From Athalassotoga saccharophila (GTDB lineage Bacteria > Thermotogota > Thermotogae > Mesoaciditogales > Mesoaciditogaceae), in contig NZ_AP019551.1 in assembly GCF_009936215.1 (NCBI RefSeq), positions 248,001 through 312,000 of the forward strand: a stretch of 64,000 nucleotides of DNA. Direction: 5' to 3'. The position numbers and the translations under genes are program-made. Shown here in pieces: positions 1,533 to 14,034 of this stretch (within the stretch, counting starts at the first letter, position 1; every line of letters begins with the position of its first letter). The notes under the pieces were generated by a model. It searched no databases. It was not told where the DNA came from and saw only the letters and a list, made by a program, of their open reading frames with translations.

Positions 1533-4500
1533 TCACCTCTTAATTTCCATAATGTCACCTATTCCAAAAGGAATAAAGGTGTAATCTTTGGTGAATCTTT
1601 TGAAATCTCTGAATGTCCCGGGTCCTACGAATTCGTCTTTGAGAATATTTGCAATCCAGTTTGGCCCCATAAGGTTGAAAAGCGTCGTCGATGCGATGAC
1701 TTTTATCTCGTTTTCTCCTTCTTTGATAAGTTCTGTGACATCAAACACGTATGACTTCCAGTACTTCACGCCCGAAGACTTTTCGTTCACGTACAATTCA
1801 ACATAGGCAGCGTTAACGTCTGTCAATTCCAAATAAACTTTGTCCTTTGATTTTGATTGGATTTTCAACTTTCCACTGAATTCGGTCTTACCCGCATAAA
1901 AAGGATATCCTGATTTTGTCAGATTCAATCCTATCTTTTTCGATTTTCCATCTATTGCGAATTCACCAAATCTTTCTCCTAAAACCTCAAAATCTCCAAT
2001 TATGTATGCCGTATCTACCTCTGTCGATTCGTAATCTTTGAAGTTTTCAACTCTGACATGTGTCCCCGGGCCTGTTACGTTGTTGTACTTCTTGCCTTCT
2101 ATCATGAGCGTATTCTTTCCCTTCTTTAAAAGGGTAGTTATTGGGATCTTTGTGAAGTTCACACCCTTCCAGCTTTTATCCGGATCGAATGCGCCCATCT
2201 CGCCACGCTTTTTCAAAGGCTTTACCTCTGTTTGATTGAGAATTATTCTGCCTAAATTTTCTGCAAGTTCAACCACGGCAAAGAGTTCTCCTTTTGGGAC
2301 ATTTACAACGTCAAACGAATAAATTGCCCGAAATGAAGTGCCATCCTGTGCATCGTAAAAAGGCTGCCATGCTTTTGATATGTGATCATCTTCTAAAATC
2401 CGTTTCCCGTCTATCTCAAGCGTGACTTTATCAAGCGGCATAACATTTGGCTCTAATGGCTTTACGTCCCAGTTCATCTTTACAAATTCTCTTTTAAGAT
2501 TACCTTCAAATTCTATTCCAGAGTCTAAAAATTGTGGTGCCATAGGTACATCAATGCTTTCATTTGGATAATAAATCATCATACTTGAGGCCGGATAAAA
2601 CTTCACATCTATTTCCTGGCGACCATGCTTTGTACTGTAAGGAATTTTGTAGATATTTCCCGTCATTGCGTCTAAAAGATATGGAACCTTTGTATCTGAC
2701 AAGGAGGTTTTTGCATTTATTTCTCTTGATTTGTCGGTATTGGCAAAAAAGATAGTTTTTCCGTCTTTTGAAGTTCTTTGATGACATATTATTTTTTCTG
2801 CGTTTTGGCCTGTGACCATGTCGATTACATTTATTCTATCTTTGTAATAGGTGTCTGTGATTTGCAAAGCATCATTTACGGAAGAGACGACAATGGCATC
2901 TTCTGGAATTTTAACCTCTCTTTTTATTCCGTCTATTCTTGTAAGCGTCGGAGAGATAAAAATAAGCCTTTTGGGATTTAATTTTGAAAATTCAGACAGC
3001 AATTCAAATGTCTTTGATCTCAGAGTCAAAGATGGTGGCACGATGACAGTTGAGTAAGCGTAATTGCCAATTACAAGTTTACCATTCTCAATCTTTGCAT
3101 GCTTTTCCATTATGATTTCATCACCGTAGTGAAAGTCCAACTTTGACGCTATCAAAGACTTCGAAAGTGTCTCGAGAGGTTTATCGTAAAGATTTGTCTC
3201 GACCATGAAATTGTCCTTTTCATGAAGTGGTGAGTATTCACTCCAAACACTCGAGATTGGATGGATGACCAAAATATCCACATTTCTTTTGCCCTGCGTG
3301 GCAAAGTAACTTATGCGTGCCATGTAATCTGCAAAATGTCTTTCTCTGTCCCACCACGGCTGCTGATAAAATAAATTCGCTGGATAATCTCTTTTTCTCT
3401 CTCCTCTCATAGAATAAAGTGAAAGATGCGGATTTATAAAATTTATTCCAAGTGCAACAAGCCAGTCGGCAATCCACTTTCTATGGTAAAAACTTGACTG
3501 CTGTCCGATTGTCCCGAAAGCCTCACACAACATACGCTCTTTTCCAAGTTGATCTCCAACAGATGTCAGCTGTTTGACAGTCAACGTATTACCAATAGGT
3601 TCGAGATTTCTTCCGAGTTTATCTATCCCCGGCTGATGCATGAACTCGTAGTGAGGCATGGCAGCGCCAATCCATTGTGTTTGGGAAACAAGTGTATCTT
3701 CGGCCATAAAATGACCTGTCATTTTAAGATTGTTTTTCTCGCACCAATCGAAATATTGTTTTGTCCAGCTTTCCAAAAATAGCCTTGTCGCCGTATCGTA
3801 AAAGTCAAATCTTATCTTTTGGTAATCCCCTTCGTCGAAAAACAATTCTTTCAAATGATCTTCAATTGAATATCCTTTTATTTTCTTGAAATATTCTGGA
3901 AGAAAATCAGACCACGGTACAGCCGGTACATTGTAGAGATTATCCATAAGATAACAGGGCTCATCCATGAAAATGCCTGGTATGACATTACCAAAATATT
4001 CTCCGCATGATTTTTTGTATTTTTCATGAGTTGATTCAAGAAAGGCCTTCGTTACATTCGGATTCATAAGATCAACGTAACTTGTTTTGTTGAACCAAAG
4101 ATCACCTAAAGGAGCCACATTGACACAAATGCTGTAATGGTGTCCTTCATGATCAAACTCGGATAGAACCTTATCATTTTCGGTTGACTTTGTATCTGCG
4201 ATCAAAATAAGCGCGTGATTTCTGTAAGGCTTGCCTAATTTTGGCACCTCTCCGCCGGCGAAACCAGATGGCCACTTATCCTCATCATAAAGCCATGCGT
4301 AAGTTTTCGTCTTTTGTGCCGCTTTAACAGAGGCGCGTGTTAATTTCATCCAATCAGAAGAAAGATAGCCAGTTATAAGGCCAACTCGAGTGTGAAGAAA
4401 TGAACCACCATATCCTTTATTTGCAAATTCATCTGTTTGCCTTTCAATTTCGTCTTTGTCTAATTTGTCGTTTAAACTGAAGAATGGATAGGCTCTGTAA

Positions 4501-4535
4501 ATTGCTTTAGGTAACTTGAAAGATTTTAAATTCAT
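1533..4535 (-). CDS. GH106-like alpha-L-rhamnosidase
   Basis: A 1000-residue protein without a signal peptide, so probably cytoplasmic. The N-terminal catalytic region carries WLYDEDKWPSGFAGG at residues 81-95, a hallmark of the GH106 rhamnosidase group, followed by a conserved acidic motif FMDEPCYLMD and the HYEFMHQPG segment. The C-terminal third is beta-rich and looks like galactose-binding/beta-sandwich modules. GH106 enzymes release terminal L-rhamnose from oligosaccharides and plant or polysaccharide glycans by hydrolysis. The operon position, directly upstream of rhamnose isomerase and downstream of the transporter, fits cleavage of imported rhamnosides. The ATG is preceded by a weak AGAGTGA. 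The family call is by motif recognition; an HMM search against GH106 and related unclassified relatives would settle it. Confidence 0.75.
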   Translation of the reverse strand: MNLKSFKLPKAIYRAYPFFSLNDKLDKDEIERQTDEFANKGYGGSFLHTRVGLITGYLSSDWMKLTRASVKAAQKTKTYAWLYDEDKWPSGFAGGEVPKLGKPYRNHALILIADTKSTENDKVLSEFDHEGHHYSICVNVAPLGDLWFNKTSYVDLMNPNVTKAFLESTHEKYKKSCGEYFGNVIPGIFMDEPCYLMDNLYNVPAVPWSDFLPEYFKKIKGYSIEDHLKELFFDEGDYQKIRFDFYDTATRLFLESWTKQYFDWCEKNNLKMTGHFMAEDTLVSQTQWIGAAMPHYEFMHQPGIDKLGRNLEPIGNTLTVKQLTSVGDQLGKERMLCEAFGTIGQQSSFYHRKWIADWLVALGINFINPHLSLYSMRGERKRDYPANLFYQQPWWDRERHFADYMARISYFATQGKRNVDILVIHPISSVWSEYSPLHEKDNFMVETNLYDKPLETLSKSLIASKLDFHYGDEIIMEKHAKIENGKLVIGNYAYSTVIVPPSLTLRSKTFELLSEFSKLNPKRLIFISPTLTRIDGIKREVKIPEDAIVVSSVNDALQITDTYYKDRINVIDMVTGQNAEKIICHQRTSKDGKTIFFANTDKSREINAKTSLSDTKVPYLLDAMTGNIYKIPYSTKHGRQEIDVKFYPASSMMIYYPNESIDVPMAPQFLDSGIEFEGNLKREFVKMNWDVKPLEPNVMPLDKVTLEIDGKRILEDDHISKAWQPFYDAQDGTSFRAIYSFDVVNVPKGELFAVVELAENLGRIILNQTEVKPLKKRGEMGAFDPDKSWKGVNFTKIPITTLLKKGKNTLMIEGKKYNNVTGPGTHVRVENFKDYESTEVDTAYIIGDFEVLGERFGEFAIDGKSKKIGLNLTKSGYPFYAGKTEFSGKLKIQSKSKDKVYLELTDVNAAYVELYVNEKSSGVKYWKSYVFDVTELIKEGENEIKVIASTTLFNLMGPNWIANILKDEFVGPGTFRDFKRFTKDYTFIPFGIGDIMEIKR

Positions 4536-5174: not shown

Positions 5175-6200
5175 TCAGAAATTAAATTGATTTACATTCT
5201 GTGCTGTAAAAATGAAAGGTTTTCCCAGTAGAACTACATTGTTTGGCCCAACTTTATAGAATCCTAATTTCCCTCCTCCAATATATTCAGTACCGTTTAT
5301 ATTACTTATCATCATTCCTCTTACCAAGTCATTAGCTGCGTAAAGAGCCAAGTAACCTAGATCAACTGGGTTCCACAATACATCCTGTTTAACAACACCG
5401 GCCTGGAAATATTTTTTCATATCATTTGGAGTTGCAAGCCCTACAACATACAACTTCCCGCTAAGTCCTGCATCTAAAACGGCTTGTGCAGCCATTGGAA
5501 AAGCAACAGACGTTATTGCTACAATAGCCTTAGCTTGAGGATAATAAGCATTTATTATTGTCTGGGCATCTTGATACGAAGGGCCTGGTAAGTCTCCGCC
5601 ATATTGAATTGTAACTATGTGCATTTTAGGATATGATTGTGCCATATACTCTTTCATAGCCGCAATCCAAGCATTCTGATTAGCTGCATTTGGGTCAGCA
5701 CTTAAAATAGCAATACCTGCGTCAGGACCAACGTTTTGAGCAACTAAGTCAATTAGAGTTCTCGCAAGAACGTTAAAATCAACCTGATTTATAAACAGAT
5801 CTCTTGCTGCTGGATCTGCGACGTCTGAATCAAAACCAACGACTTTAATACCTGCTGCCATTGCTTGCTTCAAAACTGGAATCAAGGCTTGAGCATCATT
5901 TGACGAATAAAGCAGAGCATCTGGGTGCAACGCTATTATGCTTGTTATCGTCTTAATTTCATCTTCTGTGTTAGCTGTACTTGGCCCCATATAATAGAAC
6001 TTAACAGGCAATCCTAATTCATTTAATTCGGCAACTGCTTGTAAAGCTCCTTGTTCACATGCAGTAAAATATGGGGCGCCTGTGAATTTTGGAACCATAT
6101 AAATTGTTATCGGTGATGCCGAATTTGTAGTTGAACCGAAACTTGCTATACTTACTATACTTAGCATTACAAGTACCGATATAAGTATACCTTTTCTCAT
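5175..6200 (-). CDS. rhaS: ABC sugar-binding protein, RhaS/LsrB-like
   Basis: A secreted periplasmic-type binding protein of about 341 residues, class I sugar-binding (peripBP) fold. The N-terminus is a signal peptide with a basic MRKG start, a hydrophobic stretch and a cleavage region near SIASFGST. Motifs such as YMVPKFTGAPYFTACEQGA, LLYSSNDAQALIPVL and VVGFDSD are typical of the rhamnose/autoinducer-2 binding protein group. A GTG nine bases upstream (6209) overlaps the Shine-Dalgarno AAGGAGGTG; the ATG at 6198-6200 is the better start. It delivers substrate to the two permeases and the ATPase encoded upstream. Rhamnose is inferred from the operon; autoinducer-2 or a rhamnose disaccharide cannot be excluded. 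A 221-base leader precedes it and a strong hairpin follows it. Confidence 0.8.
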   Translation of the reverse strand: MRKGILISVLVMLSIVSIASFGSTTNSASPITIYMVPKFTGAPYFTACEQGALQAVAELNELGLPVKFYYMGPSTANTEDEIKTITSIIALHPDALLYSSNDAQALIPVLKQAMAAGIKVVGFDSDVADPAARDLFINQVDFNVLARTLIDLVAQNVGPDAGIAILSADPNAANQNAWIAAMKEYMAQSYPKMHIVTIQYGGDLPGPSYQDAQTIINAYYPQAKAIVAITSVAFPMAAQAVLDAGLSGKLYVVGLATPNDMKKYFQAGVVKQDVLWNPVDLGYLALYAANDLVRGMMISNINGTEYIGGGKLGFYKVGPNNVVLLGKPFIFTAQNVNQFNF

Positions 6201-6421
6201 ACAATACACCTCCTTGATTTATAGGGATCTTTCAGAATACTTTGATTTTTTCATATTTAAAAGTCAGAATTCTTAATTCACCTCCTTTCACAAGTTGTGT
6301 AGCAAGACGATTATAATAGTTGACACAAATTTTGATTTTTATTTAAATGATTTTTTGTCTTAATCAAGAATTTTCAATAATTGTATCCTGAAAGGCTCCC
6401 AATATACTCTTGTGTATTTTT
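6201..6421 (-). promoter_or_regulatory. Leader region before rhaS with orphan Shine-Dalgarno
   Basis: This 221-base stretch between the last permease gene and the binding-protein gene is unusually long for the operon. On the minus strand it contains a -10-like TATAAT (6310-6315) without a recognisable -35, and a strong Shine-Dalgarno AAAGGAGGTGA (about 6283-6293) that is not followed by a normal start codon: the only short frame behind it would begin with ATT and encode about 12 residues. A second Shine-Dalgarno, AAGGAGGTG, serves rhaS itself. The region may be an internal promoter, a leader peptide or an mRNA processing site. Confidence 0.4.
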
Positions 6422-7381
6422 CTATTTACTGATAGTCTGTATTGTTTTTACTTTACTCTTTCCAACATATTCATAAAAGATTATCGAACTAATTAATATG
6501 GTACCAACAACTATTTCCTGAACTGTTGCTTGAATATTTGCAAGTGTTAACCCAGCATCAATAAGTGCGATTATCAAGACTCCCAAAACTGTTCCAAGAA
6601 CACTACCAGAGCCTCCTTTAACATCTGTCCCACCTAAAACAGAAGCTGCAACGACATTCAATGCCCCAGAAGAAAAAGCACTTGAAGTTGCCGTAGCTGT
6701 TCTCGATGTGTATATTACACCTGCTAATCCAGCTAATAGGCCTGCTAATATGTATATTGTCATTTCTATCTTCTGAACTGGTATTCCTGAATAAAAAGTG
6801 CCCTTTTCATTATTTCCTATTGCAAAGAGATACATTCCAAAGCTTGTTTTTGAAACGATTATATAGAATATTACAGCTATAATTGCCCATATTAAGAGGG
6901 AATAAGGTATCCCTACAAAAGATCCTTCTCCTAAGTTGAGAAAACTTTGTGGAAACCCGGATACACCTTTCCCTCTATCTATACCAACTGCCAATCCAGC
7001 ATAAGCCGCCCAAGTACCTAAAGTGGCTAGAAGAGCTGGTATCCTAAGTTTGGATACTAAAAAACCATTGAATAGGCCTGCTATTCCGCTTACAATGATT
7101 GCTAGGATAACTGCAAGCCATATATTCATTCCCCAAAATTTCCATAAGTATCCCATAATTACACCAGTAAGAGCTAAAGTAGAAGTAATTGAAAGATCTA
7201 TACCTCCTGTGATCATTATCAAAGTCATAGGAATAGACATTATTCCTAGTTCAGCAGAAAGTTGCAATATTTGGAACAAAGTTGAAATATTCAAAAATGC
7301 TTTTGATAGAAAACTCATTATAACGATGACAAGCACCATTATTCCTAAGAGAATGAGTTCTATTTTTTTCATGTTTCTCAT
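6422..7381 (-). CDS. ABC sugar permease (RbsC/RhaQ-type), second subunit
   Basis: A 319-residue integral membrane protein with about eight to ten hydrophobic helices and almost no soluble domain, characteristic of the branched ribose/xylose/rhamnose permease family. The conserved EAA-like cytoplasmic region reads AIGNNEKGTFYSGIPVQKIE, and the C-terminal part has the glycine-rich VVAASVLGGTDVKGGSGSVLGT block of RbsC-type permeases. It pairs with the permease at 7378-8331 to form the heterodimeric channel for the binding protein and two-domain ATPase. Its start overlaps the stop of the upstream permease (ATGA), implying translational coupling. The symbol (rhaP or rhaQ) is not assigned because the two paralogues cannot be told apart by eye. 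Confidence 0.85.
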   Translation of the reverse strand: MRNMKKIELILLGIMVLVIVIMSFLSKAFLNISTLFQILQLSAELGIMSIPMTLIMITGGIDLSITSTLALTGVIMGYLWKFWGMNIWLAVILAIIVSGIAGLFNGFLVSKLRIPALLATLGTWAAYAGLAVGIDRGKGVSGFPQSFLNLGEGSFVGIPYSLLIWAIIAVIFYIIVSKTSFGMYLFAIGNNEKGTFYSGIPVQKIEMTIYILAGLLAGLAGVIYTSRTATATSSAFSSGALNVVAASVLGGTDVKGGSGSVLGTVLGVLIIALIDAGLTLANIQATVQEIVVGTILISSIIFYEYVGKSKVKTIQTISK

Positions 7382-8331
7382 ATTTTTAGTACACCACGCT
7401 TTCTTCTGTTTTCTCTTAAAACATCGCTAATAATAGCAAGAAGAATTATCAACCCTTCTATAGCTTCGCTCCAAGTTGCCGGTATTCCCAAAAAAATAGT
7501 AACAGATGATATTTCTGTAAGTAAAATGGCTCCAAGAATATTTCCTTCTACTTTTCCTCTTCCACCCAAAATACTTGTGCCACCAATAACTGCTGCTGCA
7601 ATGACTGGAAGTACTAAATTTGATCCTATGTTAGATGAAACAACGAAAAATCTTGAGGCACTTAAGAACCCTGAAAATCCACTAAACATTCCACTCAACA
7701 TTAACGCATAAAAAATTGTTCTATTCGGATTAATTCCAGCAAAAATGGCCGCTTCAATATTTGTTCCACACGCATAAAATTTTCTGAAAAGCGGCATATT
7801 TCTGACGAAAAATACCATTAATATACTTACACCAAAACCAATCCATATATCTAAACTTATTCCCAATACTGGATAATTCGATATTTGCCACTTGTTTGGC
7901 AAGTTATATATCCACATTCCATTTGTCCACCACAATATAAATCCTTCTAAACCAATCATTGTGCCTAATGTTGTTATTAATGAAGGTATACGAAATTTAG
8001 CAGTTATAAATCCATTGAGTGCTCCCAATGCGAGGCCAATGCCTATGCTCCAAAGAACAACTAAAAACATTGGTGCTCCCATGACAGCAAATTGTGCCGA
8101 GGTCACAGCACTTATAGTGTAAATAGAGCCAACTGAAAGATCTGCATTTCCAAATCCGTTAATAATAACGAAGGATTCTCCAATGACCACTAACACCATT
8201 ACAGCTGTATTTCCAAGTATAGAAGATATATTTCTAAAACTTGTAAAATTAGGATTTACCGCTTCAGCAATAACACCTAATCCTATTATAGTAATTACTA
8301 ATACAATTTCTCTTCCCCATTTACTAATCAT
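7378..8331 (-). CDS. ABC sugar permease (RbsC/RhaP-type), first subunit
   Basis: A 317-residue polytopic membrane protein of the RbsC/XylH/RhaP family. The EAA-like loop is seen in ACGTNIEAAIFAGINPNRT, and the C-terminal glycine-rich stretch reads PVIAAAVIGGTSILGGRGKVEG. With the downstream permease it forms the membrane part of a sugar ABC importer. It overlaps the ATPase gene by eight bases and the next permease by four, so the three are translationally coupled. The region is more A+T-rich in synonymous positions than the flanking aldolase and isomerase genes, suggesting that the transporter block has a different history. Confidence 0.85.
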   Translation of the reverse strand: MISKWGREIVLVITIIGLGVIAEAVNPNFTSFRNISSILGNTAVMVLVVIGESFVIINGFGNADLSVGSIYTISAVTSAQFAVMGAPMFLVVLWSIGIGLALGALNGFITAKFRIPSLITTLGTMIGLEGFILWWTNGMWIYNLPNKWQISNYPVLGISLDIWIGFGVSILMVFFVRNMPLFRKFYACGTNIEAAIFAGINPNRTIFYALMLSGMFSGFSGFLSASRFFVVSSNIGSNLVLPVIAAAVIGGTSILGGRGKVEGNILGAILLTEISSVTIFLGIPATWSEAIEGLIILLAIISDVLRENRRKRGVLKI

Positions 8332-9862
8332 TTCTACTTTCTCCTACAAAACTTTTTACAGCAAAACTATCATCTCTTTCCTCAAGAGTAGACAAGGCTA
8401 TTAATTCATCTATTGACAAGTTTGGTTTTTTAAGTTCTCCAGCAACTACGCCTTTTCTCAAAACAATTATTCTATCACACATATTTACAAGTTCATCAAA
8501 ATCCGAAGATATAAAAATGACACTTCTTCCTTCTTCTACAAATTTATTTATCCATGTATAAATTTGAGCCTTACTACCTACATCTATTCCTTGTGTTGGC
8601 TCATCCATAATAATTATGCTTGCATCTCTAACTAACCATTTTGATATAACAATTTTTTGTTGATTACCACCAGATAAATGCAGTACTTGAAAATCTGGAA
8701 ATGGTGGCTGTATCTCGAAGTCTTTGATGGCTTTATTTGTTAAATCAGATCCTTTTTTTGGATCCAGAAACCCGTTCTTGTTTTTTATAAGATCAACATT
8801 TGGCAGACTTATGTTAAATTTAATGCTTTGTTGCAAAATCAACCCTTCACGTTGTCTATCCTCAGGAATTAATACTATACCTTCCTTCACAGCATCTGAA
8901 GGTGCTTTTATATTTATTTTTTTATTGTTTAAAAATATACTTCCATCGGTAGCAGGTGTTATACCGAATAATGTATTCGCCAGCGTCGTTCTTCCAGAAC
9001 CAAGAATTCCCGCTATACCTAAGACTTCACCTTTTTTTAGTTCCATGGAAAAACTTCTCAAAATGCCACTATTTATGTTTTCTACTTTTAAATTTATGCT
9101 ACCAATTTTAGGATCTCGTCTTGGGTAAAAAGTTTGAAGTTCTCTTCCTATCATTGCTTTAACTATGCTACCTAAATTCAAGTTTGAAATCGAGTCTGTC
9201 ATAACAACTTCTCCATTTCTAAAAACCGTTACAGTGTCAGCCAATTCAAAAATTTCTTCAAGTAGGTGACTTATATAAATTATGCTTATTCCTTTATTTT
9301 TGAGCTTTTTGATATTTTCAAACAATATTTTTGTTTCATCAGATGTAAGAGCAGCTGTAGGTTCATCCAAAATCAATATTTTTCCTTGTTTTAGAAGAGA
9401 TCTCAATATTTGCAACAGTTTTTGCATAGGCGCACTAATATTCTTTGCCTCTTGATCAAGTGGAATGTTTATGCCAACCTCATTCATGATTTTCAACGCC
9501 TGATTTCTAAAGTTTTTCCAATTTATTAACTTAATGGAAGAAGAGGAATAATTATCAATAAACATATTCTCAAGGACTGTTAAGTCGGGGAAGATTATTA
9601 AGCTTTGATGCACAGTTGATATTCCCAAAGATATAGCATAATTAGGGTCTTTTATTTCTACCTTCTTTCCATCAAGGAAAATGTTACCACTATCAGGTTT
9701 ATAAACCCCAGCCAAAATTTTGACTAATGTTGATTTACCCGCTCCATTCTGACCAACTAAAGCATGAACTTCTCCTTTTTTAAGTTGGAAATCTACATTT
9801 TTTAAGGCCTGAACACCAGGAAAAGATTTTGATAATTTTTCTGTTCGTAAAATCTCATCCAA
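8324..9862 (-). CDS. rhaT: Two-domain sugar ABC ATPase (RbsA/RhaT-type)
   Basis: A 512-residue cytoplasmic ATPase with two fused nucleotide-binding domains, as in ribose, xylose and rhamnose importers. Domain 1 has Walker A GQNGAGKST, a degenerate signature near ISAPMQKL and Walker B ILILDEPTAAL. Domain 2 has the usual degenerate P-loop GILGSGRTT, signature LSGGNQQK and Walker B IIMDEPTQGID. The frame can extend to a TTG at 9892 overlapping the aldolase gene, but a TTG at 9860-9862, preceded by GGAAGAGG at good spacing, gives a normal N-terminus (MDEILRTEKLSKSFPG). It energises import through the two downstream permeases. Rhamnose specificity is inferred from the operon. Confidence 0.88.
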   Translation of the reverse strand: MDEILRTEKLSKSFPGVQALKNVDFQLKKGEVHALVGQNGAGKSTLVKILAGVYKPDSGNIFLDGKKVEIKDPNYAISLGISTVHQSLIIFPDLTVLENMFIDNYSSSSIKLINWKNFRNQALKIMNEVGINIPLDQEAKNISAPMQKLLQILRSLLKQGKILILDEPTAALTSDETKILFENIKKLKNKGISIIYISHLLEEIFELADTVTVFRNGEVVMTDSISNLNLGSIVKAMIGRELQTFYPRRDPKIGSINLKVENINSGILRSFSMELKKGEVLGIAGILGSGRTTLANTLFGITPATDGSIFLNNKKINIKAPSDAVKEGIVLIPEDRQREGLILQQSIKFNISLPNVDLIKNKNGFLDPKKGSDLTNKAIKDFEIQPPFPDFQVLHLSGGNQQKIVISKWLVRDASIIIMDEPTQGIDVGSKAQIYTWINKFVEEGRSVIFISSDFDELVNMCDRIIVLRKGVVAGELKKPNLSIDELIALSTLEERDDSFAVKSFVGESRND

Positions 9863-9881
9863 TTTTACCTCTTCCTTTACT

Positions 9882-10526
9882 TTAATAATCAATTACTTTA
9901 TACGATGATAATTGATTCAAAAAAGCTTTTATGTCTCTCTCTTTAATTTCATTTATATTTTCATCTGCCATTTTAAGTGTAAGTACAACCTTTGCAACAA
10001 AATCAAGTGTTTCCAGTTTTTCATAGACCGCTTTGATGCTTTTTCCTATCACTGTCACGCCGTGATTTTGAAGAATGAAAACATCCTTTCCGGCTTTCAA
10101 TTCCGGTGTAAATACATCTGCAAATTCCTGTGTGCCTGGCATTCTGTATGGAAGATACGTGATGTCTTTGAGCAAAAGTGCGGCCTCCGGAAGCGTGTTT
10201 ATGGGGATCTTTTCACCACTTACGGCAAAGGCAGTTGCGTAAGCAGGGTGGGCGTGAAAGACACAATTTATATCCGGTCTCTCTTTGTATATGAGAAAAT
10301 GCATCTTGCGCTCTGACGAAGGTTCTCCGTCACCTTCTATGACTTTATCATCCAATGTTATTTTTATGATATCTTTAGGCTTAAGAAAATGCTTTATGCT
10401 CGAGTGAGGAGTTATATATATGGTGTTGGCATCTGCTCTTACGCTCATGTTTCCGCCGGTGGATTCTGTGAGGCCTCTGTCCCATGCAAGTTTAGAATAC
10501 TCGACAAGTTCTTCAACGATATTCAT
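9882..10526 (-). CDS. Class II aldolase, FucA-like (rhamnulose/fuculose 1-phosphate)
   Basis: A 214-residue zinc aldolase/epimerase-family protein that cleaves a deoxyketohexose 1-phosphate into dihydroxyacetone phosphate and L-lactaldehyde. With the ATG at 10524-10526, which follows GGAGG at five bases, catalytic Glu73 (GEPSSERKMHF), zinc ligands His91 and His93 (FHAHPAY) and His155 (LQNHG) fall on almost the same numbers as in E. coli FucA (Glu73, His92, His94, His155). It is thus FucA-sized, not the longer E. coli RhaD type. As first gene of a rhamnose operon it most likely acts on L-rhamnulose 1-phosphate. A promoter and a palindromic operator lie directly upstream. Confidence 0.82.
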   Translation of the reverse strand: MNIVEELVEYSKLAWDRGLTESTGGNMSVRADANTIYITPHSSIKHFLKPKDIIKITLDDKVIEGDGEPSSERKMHFLIYKERPDINCVFHAHPAYATAFAVSGEKIPINTLPEAALLLKDITYLPYRMPGTQEFADVFTPELKAGKDVFILQNHGVTVIGKSIKAVYEKLETLDFVAKVVLTLKMADENINEIKERDIKAFLNQLSSYKVIDY

Positions 10527-10541
10527 AATTTCCTCCAATCT

Positions 10542-10562
10542 ATATGATTAACTTAATCATAT
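10542..10562 (-). promoter_or_regulatory. 21-bp palindromic operator of the rhamnose operon
   Basis: The minus strand reads ATATGATTAA-G-TTAATCATAT, a perfect 10-bp inverted repeat around one central base. It lies just downstream of the predicted transcription start and upstream of the aldolase Shine-Dalgarno, a position that suits a repressor. The cognate regulator is not certain; the DeoR protein encoded at 13.2 kb is the nearest candidate. Confidence 0.7.
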
Positions 10563-10730: not shown

Positions 10731-11435
10731 CTATCTACTTAGGAAAAATATTCTTTTCATAAGTTCACTTTCGGCCTGTATGAATTTTGTGTCCGAGATA
10801 TCTCTTTCTTTTTGTTGAAGATCGATTTTTATATCTTGGATGATCTTTGAAGGACGTTTTGAGAGTATCAAAATCCTGTCTGATAACAGAATGGCCTCTT
10901 TTACATCGTGAGTTACCGTGATGATGGCAAATTTTCTTTGATCTCTAAGTTTATTTATGTCTTCTATTATCGCAAACTTAACCGGCATGTCGAGAGATGA
11001 GAAAGGCTCGTCGAGAATGAGAAGTTGGGGATCGGCTATGAGGGCTCTGACGAGGTTTACTCTTTGCTTCATTCCGCCACTCAATTGAGATGGAAGGTAA
11101 TCTTCAAATCCTTCGAGGCGCATTGCCTTAAGAAAAAAATCTATCTTATCTTTGTCAGGAAAAACAAAGGTAAGATTTTCCATTACGTTTATCCAAGGGA
11201 TAAGGCGCGGCTCTTGAAAAACAAAGCCTATTCTCTCAAAGTTTTTCTCTATCCTGCCATGAAAATCTTTTTCAAGATCGGCAATTATCTTCAAAAATGT
11301 CGTTTTTCCGCATCCTGAAGGGCCTATCATCGCAATACGCTCGTCCCTTTCGATCTCAAGGTTCCATCCGTCTATAACCGAAAGGTTTCCAAAATTTTTC
11401 TTTAGATTTTCTACCCTTAAGATTGCATCTGCCAT
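10731..11435 (-). CDS. NitT/TauT-type ABC transporter ATPase
   Basis: A 234-residue ABC ATPase of the nitrate/sulfonate/taurine (SsuB/TauB/ThiZ) family. Visible motifs are Walker A GPSGCGKTT, Q-loop VFQEPRLIPW, signature LSGGMKQR, Walker B LLILDEPF and the switch His in VTHDVKEA. It powers uptake by the permease and binding protein encoded immediately upstream, overlapping the permease gene by 19 bases. It is the last gene of a three-gene operon ending about 60 bases before a hairpin. The substrate is unknown: the family includes importers for sulfonates, nitrate, hydroxymethylpyrimidine and riboflavin. No thiamine or flavin riboswitch precedes the operon. Confidence 0.85.
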   Translation of the reverse strand: MADAILRVENLKKNFGNLSVIDGWNLEIERDERIAMIGPSGCGKTTFLKIIADLEKDFHGRIEKNFERIGFVFQEPRLIPWINVMENLTFVFPDKDKIDFFLKAMRLEGFEDYLPSQLSGGMKQRVNLVRALIADPQLLILDEPFSSLDMPVKFAIIEDINKLRDQRKFAIITVTHDVKEAILLSDRILILSKRPSKIIQDIKIDLQQKERDISDTKFIQAESELMKRIFFLSR

Positions 11436-12154
11436 TTTTCGAGTACTTTTTTAAATGCTATTTTCACAAGTCTTTCGGATGCTATTCCAAGTGTTACGGC
11501 TATTATTGTAAGCGCATAAATTCTCGGCACATCGACATATTGCCTCGCCCACGAAATAAGCACACCTATTCCATCAGATCCACAGAGATATTCTGAAACG
11601 ACTATGACCTTCCATACATCCCCTATTATAACTTCTACAGTTGAAAATACGAACGGGACCAATGATCCGAGGTATATCGTCCTTATGATTTTAACCTGAG
11701 GCACTTTGTAAACTCTCGCCATTTCTATTAAACTTTTATCTGTACTCCTTACGCCTGCTGCCGTTGTGAAGATCGAGATTGGAAGAAGGGACAAAAAGCT
11801 TATCACAACGGGACCTTTCCATCCTATCCCCCATACGAATATTACAAGCGCAAGCCATGATATGACCGGCACAGCCTGAACTACCGTAATGGCAGGCCTG
11901 AATATTTGGTAAACGCTTTCACTTATACCCATCAAAAATCCCACAGGAGTGCCAATTGCTATAACCATTAAGAGTACCAAAAGACTTTTCCATACCGTGC
12001 TGAATATTGCCTGATAAGTTTCCTGCTGAAGTGCAAGGTTGTAAAGTGATTTAAATGTAAGGTACGGAGATGGCAGGATCAACGGAACGTTGAGAATCGC
12101 CGCGAAGATCTGCCATGCGATCAAAAATATCAGAATCCCAAAAAGTATTTTCAA
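11417..12154 (-). CDS. NitT/TauT-type ABC transporter permease
   Basis: A 245-residue membrane protein with about six helices, of the binding-protein-dependent permease family. The EAA loop is recognisable at EMARVYKVPQVKIIRTIYLG (about residues 143-162), which contacts the ATPase. The gene starts with a TTG that overlaps the binding-protein stop codon and it overlaps the ATPase gene, so the operon is translationally coupled. Together with its neighbours it forms an importer of the SsuABC/ThiXYZ type. Nothing in the membrane sequence identifies the substrate. Confidence 0.84.
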   Translation of the reverse strand: MKILFGILIFLIAWQIFAAILNVPLILPSPYLTFKSLYNLALQQETYQAIFSTVWKSLLVLLMVIAIGTPVGFLMGISESVYQIFRPAITVVQAVPVISWLALVIFVWGIGWKGPVVISFLSLLPISIFTTAAGVRSTDKSLIEMARVYKVPQVKIIRTIYLGSLVPFVFSTVEVIIGDVWKVIVVSEYLCGSDGIGVLISWARQYVDVPRIYALTIIAVTLGIASERLVKIAFKKVLEKWQMQS

Positions 12155-13083
12155 TATCCGTAAAATCCCTCTGAAGGAACAGATGGCATCCCCTGTGGAT
12201 AGAGTTCATTCAATTTTGAAAGGAAAATCTCCACATCCGATTTGCACTTTGAGATAGGTACGTAATAAAATTCAGTTCTTTTCATCGATTCCTTCAAAAC
12301 GGGTATCGGTATCGAAAGGTACGTTTTCGAAAGTTCGAGTGCCTGATCTATATTTTGATTCATCCATTCTATCGATCTTTCAAAAGTTTGTTCAACATTT
12401 ATAACAGTTTGAGGATGCGCACTTGCAAAGTTATCCATAACAAATAACCCTGCTATAGGTATCCTATCAGGAAGATCCATTTCTTCTCCCCACACTTTTT
12501 GAAAATCAAGCGCTATTTTTCCATATCCTCCAGCGATTGTCATCGTCACAAAAGGTTCTGGAAGGGCCGCGTAATCGATCTTTCCCGATCTGAAAAGTGC
12601 GACTATTTCCTGTGGCTGAAGATAATATATCTTAACGTCTTTGTCCGGTGTCACACCATCCTGAGACATCATATACCTCATGAGCACATCAACGGTTTGA
12701 CCACGTCCTTCCGGGGTGTAAATGGACTTTCCAACAAGACTTTTCCATCCAGTAAAGGTTGCGTCCTTCGAGACGACAAGATAAAAGACCTTCCATTCGT
12801 AAACTCCGAGAAGTGATATTTTTACCCCCTTCGAATACAAAATGGCCCCAAGCGTTACTGGCAAAACCGCAAAATCAGTTTGATTTGAAGCGATCATGGC
12901 TATTGCCTCATCTGTATTCTGCCAAAGTTTTACATTTATCGTCGCACTTCCGGTCACAACACCCTTCATAATCGGAGCGATCGGGATCGTCGTTGGTCCG
13001 AGAGGATTTATTAGCGTCACGCTGCTGGCAATTGAAATAGTTACAATGACAGAGAGTAAAATCAAAAAGGCGATCTTCCTCAT
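12151..13083 (-). CDS. NitT/TauT-type ABC solute-binding protein
   Basis: About 310 residues with an N-terminal signal peptide (MRKIAFLILLSVIVTISIAS) and no obvious lipobox. The mature part has the two-lobed fold pattern of the SsuA/ThiY group: NPLGPTTIPIAPIMKG near the N-terminus, SNQTDFAVLPVTLGAIL for the first substrate contact strand, and YTPEGRGQTVDVLMRYM in the second half. The GTG at 13092 lies inside the Shine-Dalgarno GAGGTG, so the ATG at 13081-13083 is preferred. A -10 TATAAT lies upstream with a weak -35. It is the first gene of the transporter operon and is divergent from the DeoR gene. Ligand unknown. Confidence 0.82.
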   Translation of the reverse strand: MRKIAFLILLSVIVTISIASSVTLINPLGPTTIPIAPIMKGVVTGSATINVKLWQNTDEAIAMIASNQTDFAVLPVTLGAILYSKGVKISLLGVYEWKVFYLVVSKDATFTGWKSLVGKSIYTPEGRGQTVDVLMRYMMSQDGVTPDKDVKIYYLQPQEIVALFRSGKIDYAALPEPFVTMTIAGGYGKIALDFQKVWGEEMDLPDRIPIAGLFVMDNFASAHPQTVINVEQTFERSIEWMNQNIDQALELSKTYLSIPIPVLKESMKRTEFYYVPISKCKSDVEIFLSKLNELYPQGMPSVPSEGFYGY

Positions 13084-13243
13084 CTTTCCCACCTCGATTT
13101 GTGATTATTGTAACTATAAGTATTATACTATTTGTACCATAAGAATTAAAAAGTGGCGCGTATATAATGAACACGTAACGCGTGGAAGGTGCATGTTGAA
13201 ATTTGTAAATCAGTTTTGTGATAAAATTTTCTAAAGGAGCGTG

Positions 13244-14034
13244 ATGATAAAATCGATCATAAACTTTTTAAAAGAGAAAGATGGAACAGAATTTTGGAAC
13301 TCGTAAATGAAAGAGATTTTCTCTCTATAGATGAGATGAAAAAATTGCTCAATGTTTCAGAAATAACCATAAGACGGGATATGAAAGAATTGAACGATAG
13401 AGCGCTCGTCCAAAAAGTCTATGGAGGAATAAAAAAGATAGATTCGAATCCTCCCGAGGCTCAATTTGCCCAAAGGCGCATGTCACATGCAAATGAAAAG
13501 GCTCTTATTGCAAAAATTGCCGTTGAACTTGTCGAAGATGGAGATACGATTTTTATAGACGCATCATCTACAACATTCGAATTTGCACGGGTATGCAGGG
13601 AGAAAAGAAATAATTTGCATGTCGTGACAACCAGTCTTGTGACGGCCCTTGAGTTGATAAAGAATCCTACAAATACAGTTACCATAATAGGCGGAATGGT
13701 GAGATCGGACAACATGTCCGTAATAGGGACAACCGCAGAAAAAATGGCAGAAAATTTAAACGTTGAGAAGACCTTTATTTCTTGCAGAACTTTTGAGCCA
13801 AATGAAGGCACGTTTGAGACAAACCCTTCGGAAAGCGTTATAAAAAGTACTATGGCCGATAATTCAAATAAAATTTATCTGCTCGTTGACAGTTCAAAAT
13901 TATTCAAAAAATCGACATTTCTTACAGTACCGGTGGAAAAAATAGATGCCGTCGTAACTGACGGCAGAGTAGATGAACTTATCAAAGCCTTACCTGACAA
14001 GGTTAAAGTCTTTTATGACCTTCGTAAGGCTTGA
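13244..14034 (+). CDS. DeoR-family sugar regulator with out-of-frame N-terminus
   Basis: The main frame encodes a DeoR repressor: winged helix with VSEITIRRDMKELNDRALVQKVYGG, then a sugar-phosphate-sensing ISOCOT/DeoRC domain (DGDTIFIDASSTTFEF, TIIGGMVR, LLVDSSKL). Its only usual start is a TTG at 13294, which would cut off the first recognition-domain helix (RERWNRILELV), although that sequence is encoded just upstream in frame. The only ATG with a Shine-Dalgarno (AAAGGAG, ATG at 13244) is in another frame and hits a stop at 13304-13306. A -1 shift at TTTAAAA (13267-13273) would join the two. Programmed frameshifting, a natural mutation or an assembly error are all possible. The 3-prime end overlaps the convergent aldolase gene by 45 bases. 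Possible targets are the rhamnose operon and the kinase/aldolase genes. Confidence 0.72.

Follow-up and report, generated by a model that had tools for sequence, protein, structure and literature searches.

The question raised by this locus is how a DeoR-family repressor is translated when its reading frame holds no canonical start codon ahead of the DNA-binding domain. The window, a 64,000-nt stretch of the genome of the heat-loving Athalassotoga saccharophila (Thermotogota, Mesoaciditogales), carries a gene whose product matches HTH_DeoR (PF08220, 2.3e-14) and DeoRC (PF00455, 3.3e-44), which assigns it to the DeoR family (Table 1). Read from the sequence, the open DeoR frame begins at 13225, directly after a TAA at 13222-13224, and extends to the stop at 14032-14034. 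The first ATG, GTG, or TTG in this frame is TTG13294, and none lies upstream of the DNA-binding domain. As an earlier preliminary description had stated, an ATG at 13244 follows a Shine-Dalgarno sequence, is one frame off the DeoR frame, and reaches a stop after 20 codons; the short ORFs of four other genomes with the same layout end after 17-20 codons. The description had also placed the first helix of the domain upstream of TTG13294 in a frame without a start codon. This holds for ATG, GTG, and TTG, but the near-cognate ATC at 13252-13254 had been overlooked.

Table 1. Features of the deoR locus and its presumed target operon, in window positions.
Feature	Coordinates	Strand	Remarks
Presumed target operon: RhaS-like binding protein, two permeases, sugar ABC ATPase, class II aldolase	5175..10538	-	From profile matches
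Second putative operator TATGATTAAGTTAATCATA, read towards aldolase	10543..10561		Core match 10545-10559; before class II aldolase gene
Putative extended -10 element TGATAAAAT	13219..13227	+	Predicted, from reading the alignment only
Shine-Dalgarno AAAGGAG	13233..13239	+	4 nt before ATG13244, 12 nt before ATC13252
0-frame short ORF from ATG13244	13244..13306	+	20 codons and TAA, MIKSIINFLKEKDGTEFWNS
Putative DeoR operator ATGAT-AAAATCG-ATCAT	13244..13260		Overlaps deoR start region
Near-cognate ATC in DeoR frame, rival start (ATT in G001)	13252..13254	+	Inside putative operator
Candidate slippery heptamer T_TTA_AAA	13267..13273	+	Phased for -1 shift, ATG frame to DeoR frame
DeoR-family repressor body	13273..14034	+	HTH_DeoR from about 13279, DeoRC sensor domain

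Orthologues were found in 7 of the 10 genomes examined for the order. The closest, from three genomes of the same genus (G003, G002, and G001) and one of another genus of the same family (G008), share 88, 85, 79, and 76% identity with the window protein. These four and the window genome (G000) have a common layout, in which GGAG, GTG, ATG, ATA, and AAA are followed by TTTTTAAAA and the DeoR frame lacks a canonical start. No outgroup has this layout. Four of the five genomes are separately assembled drafts; L032-L034 duplicate the contigs of G003, G002, and G001 and were left out of the genome count. Across the five, 165 residues are invariant and only 37 of them keep an invariant codon, indicating that the protein is under selection. 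These observations bear on the idea that the layout is a sequencing error, a private mutation, or a pseudogene, which the preliminary description had allowed for. In its favor, T5A4 consists of two short homopolymers, and the genome data are partly from nanopore reads (PMC7163026). However, the genome of strain NAS-01 (a chromosome and two plasmids) was assembled from MiSeq plus nanopore data (PMC7163026), four other assemblies share the layout, and the frame is intact and encodes a clearly constrained protein, so that the explanation is extremely unlikely and was rejected. One further locus, L013, was tabulated automatically as start-less, but an ordinary ATG lies deeper in its frame, and no relatives were found among viral contigs.

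The outgroups suggest how the frame was lost. Their aligned start codons, TTG in G006, ATG in G004, and GTG in the class-level relative G013, are all in frame with DeoR. In the interval from this start to the LFKRER segment, the five genomes show a net deletion of 4 bases relative to G006 or 10 bases relative to G004 and G013. The alignment thus indicates that an in-frame start at the position of ATG13244 is ancestral and that the net 4- or 10-base deletion put it out of frame. The preliminary description had named an in-frame start in close relatives as evidence against frameshifting; the four closest orthologues have none, and it occurs only in these three more distant ones.

TTG13294 is the first canonical in-frame start, and initiation there, or reinitiation after the 20-codon ORF, would yield a repressor lacking helix 1. 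However, the HTH_DeoR profile match begins earlier, at R13279, so a start at TTG13294 would cut helix 1, and the upstream RERWN segment is invariant in the five genomes (RERL in 2 of the 3 outgroups and KERL in G006). TTG13294 is no general alternative, as 3 of the 5 genomes have TTA at this position of the alignment. We regard this reading as very unlikely, and TTG13294 was rejected as the start for want of conservation. The repressor is mis-annotated wherever its gene is begun at TTG13294, whether the slip or the AUC start discussed below is true.

We rate at close to an even chance that the repressor is made by -1 ribosomal frameshifting at T_TTA_AAA, which is the best single explanation, though not by much. 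Ribosomes would start at ATG13244 behind AAAGGAG, and the majority would terminate after 20 codons. A minor share would slip by -1 on T_TTA_AAA and thereby enter the DeoR frame; in the P site, tRNA-Leu would exchange UUA for UUU, and in the A site, tRNA-Lys would pair with AAA both before and after the slip. A shift at this site joins the two frames into a 263-aa protein, MIKSIINFLK-RERWNRILELV..., and the slipped ribosomes would produce the repressor in this form. Since the slip would fall immediately ahead of the first HTH helix, it would set the amount of repressor and give no second product, and a low slip efficiency would suit a repressor. The repressor would in turn bind ATGAT-N7-ATCAT over its own start region, an autoregulation, and over the aldolase/ABC promoter.

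The X_XXY_YYZ phase of the heptamer, proposed in the preliminary description, agrees with the sequence. In-phase heptamers of the A/T type X_XXY_YYZ occur by chance in about 6% of 10-codon stretches of the window genome, and the exact T_TTA_AAA in about 0.6%. It is kept in all five genomes, whereas the three in-frame outgroups have TTC for TTT, which breaks it. The heptamer is thus present only where it would be needed to restore the frame; with about three or four independent lineages, this comparison is suggestive. Synonymous positions point in the same direction. Among the invariant codons F, K, R, E, and R outside the operator, 4 of 5 are identical in all five genomes (TTT, AAA, GAA, and AGA, at or after the heptamer; P about 0.004, post hoc, one gene), and the joint chance that xxT, TTT, and AAA all stay unchanged in five genomes is about 0.002 (post hoc, one gene). 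The P value was computed against 5'-end codons of nine other genes, of which 17% are identical; the corresponding share is 15% among the remaining codons and 13-17% for conserved codons in general. Such conservation above background at and after the slip site favors a role at the nucleotide level; it extends past the heptamer.

Other properties of the site speak against strong slippage. Codon and heptamer statistics were based on 464 kb of the window genome (the window plus L127-L146), in which T_TTA_AAA has 61 in-phase occurrences among 86,387 codons, compared with 16 in codon shuffles; it is over-represented rather than avoided, and strong slipping by the heptamer itself is therefore unlikely. 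T_TTA_AAA and T_TTA_AAN are both found in phase at about three to four times the codon-shuffle expectation. A stimulator is not strictly required, yet it is usual at efficient -1 frameshift sites. The downstream hairpin that the preliminary description had suggested looking for is not supported over the 100 nt downstream of the heptamer (z -0.99), the five-sequence alignment has no covarying pairs with changes on both sides, no known RNA family is supported in the region, and no internal Shine-Dalgarno sequence lies at the usual 10-14 nt upstream of the heptamer. In E. coli, Y_YYA_AAR heptamers are reported to shift more readily than composition predicts, since AAR codons shift well, but only 61% of 64 heptamers reached twice the background without a stimulator (PMC4066793). 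The proposal of regulated repressor synthesis by a -1 shift has therefore held up in part: it is favored by a phased, conserved heptamer and by synonymous constraint, and is weakened by the lack of a hairpin, by a heptamer that coding sequence does not avoid, and by the AUC/AUU alternative. The slippery tract also lies within a palindrome, CTTTTTAAAAG, at 13264-13274 in the window genome, which is only partly kept in G001 and G008.

The frame could alternatively be restored in the transcript, if RNA polymerase slipped on T5A4 so that a share of the transcripts carried one extra base. The tract is conserved in the five genomes (T6A4 in G008), and the frame arithmetic works as well as for the ribosomal slip. 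However, the runs of T5A4 are short, and in bacteria transcripts seldom slip efficiently on fewer than about eight identical A or T. The exact ribosomal phase of the heptamer would then also be a coincidence, and we consider this route quite unlikely.

The start region also carries a palindrome, which changes how its conservation is to be read. The core TGAT-N7-ATCA at the deoR start (13245-13259) occurs 3 times in the window against 2.8 expected, one of the occurrences being the core match before the aldolase gene. The palindrome ahead of the aldolase gene is also present in G002, G001, G008, G006, G013, and G004, with the consensus TATGATnAAnTTnATCATA, and it overlaps the deoR start in 8 of 8 genomes, in degenerate form in G001. 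ATGAT-N7-ATCAT is thus probably the repressor's own operator, at deoR and at the aldolase gene, as judged from these alignments, and an operator for the repressor is now predicted whether the slip or the AUC start is true. No other 48-nt stretch of the gene is as conserved as the block at 13236-13288, with 41 of 48 columns conserved compared with a mean of 28.6 and a maximum of 36 in other coding windows, and this is partly due to the overlapping palindrome. Since the operator would fix ATGAT and ATCAT, the conserved ATG and the AUC/AUU in N7 are no independent evidence for a start, and the conservation of ATG13244, taken as proof of initiation there, was withdrawn once the operator emerged. 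The heptamer can be placed outside the operator because the flanks of the aldolase sites are unlike TAAACTTTTTAAAAG. A perfect palindrome of the operator type, TTGATCAAATTGATCAA, lies elsewhere in the genome (G000:C1:1175254-1175270).

The main alternative to frameshifting, a real possibility although we hold it the less probable of the two, is that translation starts in the DeoR frame at the near-cognate AUC13252 (AUU in G001), giving a 260-aa protein that begins MDHKLFKRERWNRIL..., with ATG13244 being a part of the operator or a decoy. An in-frame AUC or AUU is found in 5 of 5 genomes, and in the window AUC13252 is the sole AUN or NTG codon in the DeoR frame between the Shine-Dalgarno sequence and the HTH. 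The outgroups have an in-frame TTG in the middle of the operator, nearly at the AUC position, so that the start codon would have moved by a single base. In the five genomes this overlapping TTG, which would be out of frame, has been lost in two ways (TCG and TTA), which would remove a competitor of the AUC. The frame above the heptamer varies conservatively (K/R and L/I/F), and the low output of a poor AUC start would suit an autoregulated repressor. AUU start codons are known from infC and pcnB, but AUC initiates very poorly. ATG13244 moreover sits 8 nt upstream of AUC13252 on the same Shine-Dalgarno sequence, the conservation of AUC/AUU can stem from the operator, and an AUC start leaves the conserved heptamer unpredicted. 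If it is true, the gene would be a case of a conserved non-canonical start beyond the usual infC and pcnB examples. The infC starts were considered as a guide to whether this lineage initiates at AUN codons but proved uninformative, as each also has an in-frame GTG or ATG; in the infC genes of the family (L147-L155) a GTG and/or ATG is closely followed by AUA, AUC, or AUU codons.

Spacing is awkward for both readings. Among 114 first ATGs with a GGAG in the window genome, the bulk are spaced by 5-9 nt, 3 of the 114 by 4 nt, as for ATG13244, and 0 of the 114 by 12 nt, which counts against AUC13252. Neither codon is well spaced from the Shine-Dalgarno sequence. Further upstream, the putative -10 element reads TGNTAAAAT or TAGAAT across the five genomes and keeps a nearly constant distance to the ATG; it is absent from the output of the consensus promoter scanner.

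The proposed slip resembles the +1 frameshift of prfB (RF2) in that a shift near the start codon controls the amount of full-length protein and does not serve two useful products. It differs in being a -1 shift on a slippery heptamer, with no stop codon in the A site and no known sensing loop. With the -1 frameshifting of dnaX and of the IS1-IS3 type it shares a phased X_XXY_YYZ heptamer that allows both tRNAs to re-pair after a -1 shift, but here no upstream Shine-Dalgarno stimulator or downstream hairpin was found, the site lies at codons 9-10, and the heptamer is T_TTA_AAA, not A_AAA_AAG. The AUC reading would resemble infC and pcnB, in which a poor AUN start keeps an autoregulated protein low; there the AUN is an established start, whereas here an AUG shares the Shine-Dalgarno sequence. 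In the open-access papers searched, no DeoR regulator is described as being made by frameshifting; four unnamed transcriptional regulators are among the E. coli frameshift candidates (PMC4066793). Somewhat more tentatively than the slip itself, we suggest a chromosomal sugar repressor that would depend obligatorily on a -1 slip at codons 9-10, with its operator across the start codon, and in which the frame-disrupting deletion may have become fixed in a lineage and been kept to hold the repressor low. If the slip is true, this would be a rare ordinary metabolic repressor made only through recoding, and the ancestral in-frame and derived out-of-frame states within one family would open the origin of obligatory frameshifting to study.

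The gene neighborhood suggests what is being repressed. The presumed target operon matches TIGR02637 (RhaS, 6.2e-83), Aldolase_II (1.4e-47), and sugar ABC models; its aldolase is of class II, fuculose/rhamnulose-phosphate type, and a rhamnosidase-like enzyme is encoded at 1533-4535. A copy of the putative deoR operator lies before the aldolase gene of this operon, which carries the RhaS-like protein. In Thermotoga, rhamnose genes are controlled by the DeoR-family RhaR (PMC3750489). That regulator, from the same phylum, likewise adjoins rhamnose transport and catabolic genes, and autoregulation is expected in both cases (PMC3750489, PMC3870299). DeoR-type RhaR sites have been described as direct repeats, imperfect and of 10-11 bp period (PMC3870299), whereas the putative operator described here is a 17-bp palindrome, ATGAT-N7-ATCAT, that overlaps the start codon. 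Thus, the gene probably encodes an autoregulated, RhaR-like repressor of the L-rhamnose locus, whose effector we infer. In the window, an NMT1/SsuABC-like ABC transporter (10731-13092) lies between deoR and the aldolase operon. The binding-protein and permease genes of such a transporter are also found upstream of deoR in G003, and in the other orthologous loci the aldolase gene is directly divergent from deoR. The transporter looks like an insertion in one sublineage.
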